DNA from: Pseudorhodobacter sp.
GTDB lineage: Bacteria; Pseudomonadota; Alphaproteobacteria; Rhodobacterales; Rhodobacteraceae
Assembly: GCA_029254215.1 (NCBI GenBank)
Contig: JAQWYA010000136.1
Span: 1 to 45,518, forward strand
Direction: 5' to 3'
DNA: 45,518 bases
The stretch's first letter is position 1, and each line of letters opens with the position of its first letter. Positions 37,430 through 39,861 of this stretch are shown here, piece by piece. Position numbers and translations under genes: made by a program. The notes under the pieces are model-generated. The model was not told the DNA's origin. It saw only the letters and a program-made list of their open reading frames with translations, and did no database searches.

Positions 37430-37951
37430 ATGAAACGCCATATCCTGCTCCATCCCGACCCGCGCCTGAAAAAGCTGTGCGAGCCCGTTGCCGAGATTTC
37501 GTCTGAAATCGGCAAACTGGCCGAAGACATGCTGGAAACCATGTATGATGCGCCCGGCATCGGCCTGGCCGCGCCGCAGGTCGGTGTGCTCAAGCGCGTG
37601 CTTGTGATGGATTGCGTCAAAGAGGCCGGCGCCGCCCCACGGCCGATGGTCATGGTCAACCCGTCGGTGCTTTGGTCGTCCGAAGATACCTCTGTTTATG
37701 ATGAAGGCTGTCTGTCGATCCCGGAGCATTATGCCGAAGTGCGCCGCCCGGCAGAGGTTCGTGTCAGCTGGACCGGTCTGGACGGCAAACTGCAGGAAGA
37801 GCAGTTTTCAGGGCTTTGGGCGACTTGTGTTCAGCATGAAATCGACCATCTGGATGGCAAGCTGTTCGTAGATTATCTTGGCCCGCTCAAGCGTCAGATG
37901 ATCACCCGCAAGATGCAAAAGCTGAAGCGCGAACTGGCACGGGGCGGCTGA
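37430..37951 (+). CDS. def: peptide deformylase (canonical)
   Basis: GIGLAAPQVG, DEGCLSIPE, CVQHEIDHLDGKLF: all three PDF motifs intact. Confidence 0.97.
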   Translation: MKRHILLHPDPRLKKLCEPVAEISSEIGKLAEDMLETMYDAPGIGLAAPQVGVLKRVLVMDCVKEAGAAPRPMVMVNPSVLWSSEDTSVYDEGCLSIPEHYAEVRRPAEVRVSWTGLDGKLQEEQFSGLWATCVQHEIDHLDGKLFVDYLGPLKRQMITRKMQKLKRELARGG

Positions 37952-38442
37952 TGGCGCTTTTGCCCATTTTGCGCTGGCCGGATCCGCGCCTTTCGGCCCG
38001 CTGTGCGGCCATTTCAGCAGATGAGGATGTGTCTGCCCTTGTGGCTGATATGCTGGAGACGATGTATGACGCCCCCGGCCGTGGCCTTGCAGCCCCGCAG
38101 GTGGGCGTTCTCAAACGGCTTTTCGTCATGGACCCCGGCTGGAAAGAGGGGACGCCTGATCCCTATATCTGCATCAACCCGGTTCTGAGCGACTTTTCCG
38201 ACGAGCTGAAAAGCGGCCCCGAAGGCTGTCTTTCCATTCCGGGGATCACGACAGAGATTTCCCGCGCCGCCTCGGTCACGCTGGCCTGGACCGATCTGAA
38301 CGGGATCACCCGGCAAGACCGTCTGACGGGATTTGCGGCGATCTGTGCGCAGCATGAATACGACCATCTGGATGGGATCGTGACTTTTGACCGGCTTTCA
38401 GGCGAAGCCCGCGCCCTTGCCGAAAGCAGCTATCAACCATGA
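37951..38442 (+). CDS. def: peptide deformylase paralogue 2 (active-site motifs intact)
   Basis: GRGLAAPQVG, PEGCLSIPG, CAQHEYDHLDG; start codon shares one base with the previous stop (TGATG). Confidence 0.93.
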   Translation: MALLPILRWPDPRLSARCAAISADEDVSALVADMLETMYDAPGRGLAAPQVGVLKRLFVMDPGWKEGTPDPYICINPVLSDFSDELKSGPEGCLSIPGITTEISRAASVTLAWTDLNGITRQDRLTGFAAICAQHEYDHLDGIVTFDRLSGEARALAESSYQP

Positions 38443-38942
38443 CAATCCGCAAATGCATCCCCTATCCGGACCCACGGCTCAAGACGCCCGCCGCCGAAGT
38501 TGCCGAAATCACCGATGAGGTGCGCGCAATCTGGGCCGATATGGTGGACACGATGGAGGCGATGCCCGGCTATGGCCTTGGGGCGCCACAAATCGGGGTG
38601 ATGCAGCGGCTGGCGGTTGTTGATTGCTCTGCCGAGCGCGGGCAGGCGGTTTTGATGGCCAATCCGGTGGTGCTGCATGCCTCTGCGCAACTGCGCGACC
38701 ATGATGAGGCCAGCCCCAATCTGCCCGGCGTTTTTGCCAAGATCTCACGCCCAAGGGCCGTGACAGTGCGGTTTCTGAATGCACAGGGAGAGATGGAAGA
38801 TCGGGATTTCGTGCATCTTTGGGCCACCTCGGTGCAGCATCAGATCGACCATCTGAATGGCAGGATGTATTTCGACCATCTCAAACCGCTCAAACGCAAG
38901 ATGCTGATCGCAAAGGCGGAAAAGCTGCGCGCCAGAGGATGA
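38439..38942 (+). CDS. peptide deformylase paralogue 3, predicted catalytically dead (pseudo-deformylase)
   Basis: [10 protein letters not shown] retained; EGCLS replaced by EASPN (DEASPNLPG); HExDH replaced by HQIDH ([10 protein letters not shown]); intact ORF, ATGA overlap with paralogue 2. Confidence 0.93.
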
Positions 38943-38955
38943 AAAGGGGCTTTCC

Positions 38956-39861
38956 ATGCCGAGAATGAAGATTGTCTTCATGGGAACACCGGCATTTTCG
39001 GTTCCCGTTCTACAGGCGCTGGCGGCAGAGCATGAGATTGTGGCCGTTTATTGTCAGCCGCCCCGGCCTGCGGGGCGCGGAAAAAAGCCTCGCCCTAGCC
39101 CCGTGCAAGACTGCGCCGAGGCTTTGGGCTTGGTGGTGCGCCACCCGGTCTCCCTGCGTTCTGAGGCGGCAGCGGCAGAGTTTGCGGCGCTGGGCGCGGA
39201 TGTTGCTGTGGTTGTGGCCTATGGGCTGATCTTGCCGCAGCCTATTCTGGATGCGCCGAAATGGGGTTGTCTGAATATTCACGCCTCTTTGCTGCCGCGC
39301 TGGCGGGGCGCTGCACCAATTCACCGCGCCATCATGGCCGGGGATGCCGAAACCGGGGTCTGCATCATGCAGATGGAGGCGGGCTTGGATACCGGCCCGG
39401 TCCTGCTGCGCCAAGCCACCCCGATTGGCCCCGAAGAAACCACCGCAGGCTTGCATGACCGTCTGTCCCAGATGGGGGCGGGTTTGATCGGGCAGGCGCT
39501 GGCGGAATTGCCGTCGCTTTCGCCCGTGCCGCAACCAGATGCGGGCGTGACCTATGCTGCCAAGATCGACAAGGCCGAAGCGCGGCTGGACTGGTCGGAA
39601 CCCGCCGAAGTCGTGGATCGGAAAATCCGGGGCCTTTCGCCCTTTCCGGGGGCCTGGTGTCTGTGGGAGGGAGAGCGGGTGAAGCTTTTGGCCAGCAGGC
39701 TGGGTCAGGGGGAGGGCGCGCCGGGGCAGATCCTGCCGGGCCTGAGGGTCGCTTGCGGCAGCGGCGCGGTGGAAATCCTGACACTTCAGCGCGAAGGCAA
39801 GCGCCCGATGCAGGTTGATGATTTTCTGCGTGGTGCCGTCGTGCCGGACCGGCTGGAATAA
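38956..39861 (+). CDS. fmt: methionyl-tRNA formyltransferase
   Basis: [81 protein letters not shown]. Confidence 0.97.

Follow-up and report, generated by a model that had tools for sequence, protein, structure and literature searches.

In Rhodobacteraceae, the third of the clustered peptide deformylase (PDF) paralogues, Def3, is very probably a dead but functional protein. In the analysed window, the whole stretch of 45,518 nucleotides from Pseudorhodobacter sp., Def3 is encoded between the intact-motif paralogues Def1 and Def2 and the methionyl-tRNA formyltransferase gene fmt. The following features of the cluster are relevant here.

37430..37951, + strand: def1, PDF (PF01327) with intact motifs GIGLAAPQ / EGCLS / QHEIDH and a basic C-terminal helix
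37951..38442, + strand: def2, PDF (PF01327) with intact motifs GRGLAAPQ / EGCLS / QHEYDH, an Arg in motif I and no basic docking tail
38439..38942, + strand: def3, predicted catalytically dead PDF (pseudo-deformylase) of 167 aa, PF01327
38439..38442, + strand: ATGA overlap of the def3 start codon and the def2 stop codon, read directly
38568..38591, + strand: Def3 motif I, GYGLGAPQ, kept, including the Gln50 equivalent
38706..38720, + strand: Def3 motif II, EASPN replacing EGCLS, with Cys90 (metal ligand) changed to Ser and Leu91 to Pro
38829..38852, + strand: Def3 motif III region, SVQHQIDH, with Cys129 changed to Ser and the catalytic Glu133 to Gln, both His kept
38886..38936, + strand: Def3 C-terminal basic helix, residues 150-166, corresponding to the helix by which E. 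coli PDF docks on the ribosome (AlphaFold2 model, charge and residue counts)
38956..39861, + strand: fmt (methionyl-tRNA formyltransferase), Formyl_trans domain, closing the cluster

All four genes lie on the same strand (+) with overlapping or close ends, and the ATGA overlap suggests translational coupling of def2 and def3. A search of the whole 3.4-Mb assembly recovered Def1, Def2 and Def3 as its only PDFs. The coordinates and the description agree with the sequence-only reading, which had reported three tandem PDF homologues 5' of fmt, canonical motifs in Def1 and Def2, the motifs GYGLGAPQ / EASPN / HQIDH in Def3, and a full-length Def3 ORF (167 aa) starting on an ATGA overlap with Def2. 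Further to that description, the Leu91 to Pro and Cys129 to Ser changes (E. coli PDF numbering, used throughout) are also fixed in Def3, and the basic C-terminal ribosome-docking tail is gone from Def2 and retained in Def3.

The catalytic residues were compared across an alignment of 109 Def3, 109 Def1, 56 Def2 and 24 single PDFs, in which a few genomes were reached twice and the sequences are thus not all independent. The position of the metal ligand Cys90 is Ser, and that of Leu91 is Pro, in 109/109 Def3 sequences; one Def3 is cut, and in the 108 complete sequences the catalytic Glu133 is always Gln and Cys129 always Ser. Cys90, Leu91 and Glu133 are retained in all 133 Def1 and single PDFs. 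Gly45 and Gln50 of motif I are present in every Def3 (109/109), the window copy having one Ala to Gly change, and the alignment shows that Glu88, Arg102, His132 and His136 are kept as well. Compared with a catalytic PDF, Def3 thus matches motif I (G-phi-G-phi-A-A-x-Q), lacks motif II (EGCLS with the metal-ligand Cys) and lacks motif III (HExxH with the catalytic Glu), of which both His are kept. An orthologue with intact EGCLS/HExxH, which the sequence-only reading had named as a sign of recent decay, was not found among the 109 sequences. Because identical changes are fixed in every orthologue found, the motif substitutions represent more than chance.

In active PDFs, the formyl oxygen is held by the backbone NH of Leu91 together with the side chain of Gln50, and Pro is unable to donate that bond. 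In the Salmonella PDF, Cys90 is needed for activity and replacement of the second cysteine by Ser halves it (PMC7683392), and the E133A mutation abolishes the deformylase activity of B. subtilis DefA (PMC11194573). From these residues, Def3 is predicted to be catalytically inactive.

The evidence from descent and selection indicates that the losses are old and that the protein is constrained. In a maximum-likelihood tree, all Def3 sequences form one clade (100/100), which branches next to other Rhodobacteraceae PDFs on a long stem of 1.27 changes per site and stands apart within the alphaproteobacterial type 1B group, and Def2 forms a second clade (100/98). The deepest Def3 members (G009 and G012) still have the Gly of EGCLS and already carry Ser, Pro and Gln, which places the catalytic losses on the stem of the Def3 clade. 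Codon-model omega was about 0.067 for Def3 among 8 genomes of the genus and 0.070 among 18 of the family, compared with 0.108 and 0.083 for Def1 and 0.105 and 0.112 for Def2 in the genus and family sets, respectively, all of these being rough values as synonymous sites are partly saturated. Nei-Gojobori pairs also gave Def3 the lowest values of the three paralogues. Relaxed selection had been raised as a possible objection, and the Def3 value of about 0.07, below that of Def1, indicates purifying selection instead. Clade-wide loss of catalytic residues and purifying selection (omega about 0.07, with dS partly saturated) are both features of a pseudoenzyme. The earlier proposal of a dead PDF retained for a non-deformylase role is therefore supported by the 109/109 substitutions, the dN/dS of about 0.07 and the single old clade, with inactivity read from the residues.

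A phage or plasmid origin of Def3 was considered and rejected: the best-ranked phage matches were below 40% identity, and the plasmid collection yielded a single close match, the def cluster of Pseudorhodobacter turbinis, which lies on a 1.58-Mb replicon. In that species, these translation genes reside on an extrachromosomal replicon (G007 / NZ_CP039965.1, about 1085151-1086624).

Def3 orthologues were present in nearly all members of the same family in a first genome sample. A census of 200 Rhodobacteraceae genomes, one per genus, with Def3 identified by profile score (E at most 8e-72), found a clear Def3 in 169 genera. Of these, 89 have three PDF matches and 80 have two at E <= 1e-20, a threshold that a very divergent Def2 could escape. 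The function of Def3 is not essential to the whole family, because 27/200 genera manage with a single PDF match. Among the loci fetched from GTDB genomes, 75/80 were taken as Def3 and one further locus was cut by a contig end. The gene order is def1-def2-def3-fmt in 48 fetched loci and def1-def3-fmt in 50, and fmt lies downstream of the def genes in the 98 fetched loci containing both. A Pfam search likewise gave a total of two PDFs for each of several near-complete genomes, including a single-contig one (G011). An intact-motif Def1 accompanies Def3 in all loci that cover Def1. Individual genomes vary: one has a divergent Def3 that retains Ser and Gln (G090), one has Def1 and Def2 only (G160), and the search of another found no PDF (G027). 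The PDFs read outside Rhodobacteraceae were canonical, with no Def3-like protein found among them. Similarly, when 382 alphaproteobacterial genomes from beyond the family were scanned for the HQxDHL signature, no PDF was among the 18 matches; the pattern recovered 4/5 family genomes and is less than fully sensitive.

Def2 is the variable third copy. About half of the genomes that carry Def3 also have Def2, which is lost far more often; Def3 is the better retained of the two, as about half of the Def3 loci and genera show only two PDFs. Def2 has an Arg in motif I (GRG) and an invariant Trp after the V62 region in 56/56 sequences, and its Cys and Glu are intact in 55/56. Its tail has a net charge of -2 and the docking-helix residues are absent. 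Def2 has the look of a PDF with intact motifs that has given up ribosome docking. Some Def2 copies appear degraded in motif II (ENALS in L065; AACIC in L107), in agreement with Def2 being the dispensable member. At one locus, a 402-aa ORF resembling an MFS-type transporter occupies the place of def2 between def1 and def3 (L049 2198-3403, genome G034). A role of Def3 as a helper of Def2 was rejected as a general rule, since 80 of the 169 Def3 genera have two PDF matches and the pair read there is Def1 and Def3. Because Def2 is missing from about half of the Def3 genomes, a Def2-dependent role of Def3 is unlikely.

All three Def proteins span the PF01327 domain in full, Def3 with its residues 4-153 (128.6 bits, cut-off 22.8). 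Its AlphaFold2 model (pLDDT 96.2, pTM 0.91) has the PDF fold with a terminal helix at 150-166, and the top PDB matches of the model are all PDFs, with TM of about 0.9. The former active site varies almost as little as the active site of Def1, and Def3 has a mean entropy of 0.30-0.40 bits over its three motif regions versus 1.16 elsewhere. Such a nearly frozen pocket is expected if the pocket still binds something and is not expected of an inert scaffold. In the S1' pocket, Def3 differs from Def1 in that the Ile86 position carries His where Def1 has Tyr, and the Arg97 position carries Ser where Def1 has Tyr or Phe. The median net charge of the tail is +7 in Def3, +8 in Def1 and -2 in Def2, and almost every Def3 has basic residues at the equivalents of K150, K157 and K160. 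By model and sequence, the Def3 tail is thus an alpha-helix with basic docking residues, as in type 1B PDFs. Going by sequence, the parts are divided such that Def1 has the catalytic residues and the docking tail, Def2 the catalytic residues only and Def3 the tail only.

Through its C-terminal helix, E. coli PDF attaches to uL22 at about 2 uM; most of the enzyme is ribosome-bound, and it competes with methionine aminopeptidase (MAP) (PMC8712518). The reading that we favour, tentatively and at a little less than an even chance, is that Def3 docks on the ribosome as a non-catalytic protein, binds nascent chains bearing N-formyl-Met and in this way tunes Def1. Def3 would dock by its basic C-terminal helix next to uL22 at the tunnel exit and would accept N-formyl-Met nascent chains without hydrolysis. 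With Cys90 and Glu133 lost, and with Pro at Leu91 removing a backbone NH from the pocket, it would be unable to cleave them. By sharing the site with Def1 (and MAP), Def3 may tune the timing of deformylation or the choice of chain. The retained basic helix lends indirect support to ribosome docking, and the frozen pocket lends indirect support to binding of formyl-Met ends. The helix residues are common to Def3 and Def1 and could be retained for folding instead of docking. It is possible, if rather doubtful, that Def3 is a dedicated Rhodobacteraceae ribosome-associated antagonist or gatekeeper of deformylation, choosing which chains lose formyl, or when. Competition of Def3 with Def1 for ribosomes would be a growth cost, absent an offsetting benefit.

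Other explanations account for part of these observations. That Def3 is a decaying duplicate, a pseudogene in the making, is exceedingly improbable: an omega of about 0.07, full-length ORFs and identical substitutions family-wide refute it for the family as a whole, and recent decay or assembly error in the window copy is ruled out by the same family-wide conservation and omega. The one relative that fits this explanation has a single decayed-looking Def3 (SVGLAAPQ, QHQANH) next to an intact Def1 (G233, L137), a natural loss that could help to date the function or put it to the test. Another alternative is a heteromer in which Def3, as a dead subunit, stabilises, positions or allosterically controls Def1. 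The two share an operon in all complete loci, and 16 positions, several of them outside the motifs, are fixed in Def3 and different in Def1. However, type 1B PDFs are known as monomers, and a protein serving only as a scaffold would have no need to keep its pocket nearly invariant, so we consider this structural role unlikely.

Def3 might also have remained a hydrolase, with its metal bound at a changed site by two His and Ser and with perhaps a different substrate. Both His ligands, Gln50 and the conserved motif II Glu are kept, and exact motifs are not always required for activity according to the authors of a recent survey, in its main text (PMC12690207). Nevertheless, replacement of the metal-ligand Cys, of Leu91 and of the Glu that serves as general base is without exception, and Def3 is never the sole PDF in the loci read, which makes residual hydrolysis very unlikely. 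Finally, Def3 could be a sensor or signalling partner that binds N-formyl peptides piling up on oxidation of the Def1 iron and then acts on another protein, as inactive B. subtilis DefA acts on the kinase PtkA. This has the best precedent: although DefA E133A is devoid of deformylase activity, the mutant protein continues to confer protection against H2O2 and to inhibit PtkA, the latter more strongly when formyl peptides are present (PMC11194573). The absence of both active-site cysteines and the catalytic Glu from every Def3, as if it were locked inactive, is also in line with sensing. The cluster, however, consists of def1-(def2)-def3-fmt with no conserved kinase or other partner gene found there, and the retained ribosome-type helix is left unexplained; signalling of this kind is therefore improbable.

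The clusters reported in the main text of PMC12690207 (Mol Biol Evol 2025, msaf311) are the same gene cluster as def1-def2-def3-fmt here. Clustered PDFs were found in 98.1% and three PDFs in 62.5% of Rhodobacterales reference species; the rationale for clustering was called 'elusive', and all members are counted as PDFs in that main text. Loss of catalytic residues in one cluster member was not found in the main-text passages searched, and a literature search combining 'peptide deformylase' and 'pseudoenzyme' found no paper in the collection covered. Clustering and inactive accessory PDFs of type 3 were already known. A literature search for def gene essentiality in Rhodobacter or Ruegeria found no usable data.

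Relative to canonical type 1B PDFs (E. coli Def; Def1), Def3 shares the fold (TM 0.92-0.94, 32-33% identity to E. coli entries), motif I, both His ligands and the basic C-terminal helix, but has Ser, Pro, Ser and Gln for Cys90, Leu91, Cys129 and Glu133. It resembles the type 3 PDFs, the low-activity or inactive accessory proteins of S. aureus, S. pneumoniae and trypanosomes, in being an accessory PDF with substituted motifs beside an active one. However, type 3 is defined in the main text of PMC12690207 by substitutions in motifs I and II, whereas Def3 keeps motif I, is changed in II and III, and forms its own clade within the alphaproteobacterial type 1B PDFs; it therefore falls outside type 3. 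B. subtilis DefA is similarly a PDF protein with a role independent of deformylase activity (PMC11194573), but DefA has this role in addition to its enzymatic activity, while the catalytic residues of Def3 are permanently lost.

These results bear on annotation and on the biology of the family. The NCBIfam equivalog TIGR00079 (peptide deformylase) scores Def3 at 114.2 with a cut-off of 103.95, and a probable non-enzyme is thereby counted as 'peptide deformylase' by automated annotation. Members of the Rhodobacteraceae are common marine bacteria, and standard laboratory models are among them. In this family, the constant partner of active Def1 is a dead copy under strict conservation, which is retained more reliably than the other paralogue with intact motifs. 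Unexplained PDF clustering thereby becomes a testable question on the control of N-terminal formylation. Most Rhodobacteraceae maintain this PDF, with its catalytic residues uniformly replaced, beside the active one and as strictly as a working enzyme, so that it probably has a non-enzymatic job where new proteins exit the ribosome.
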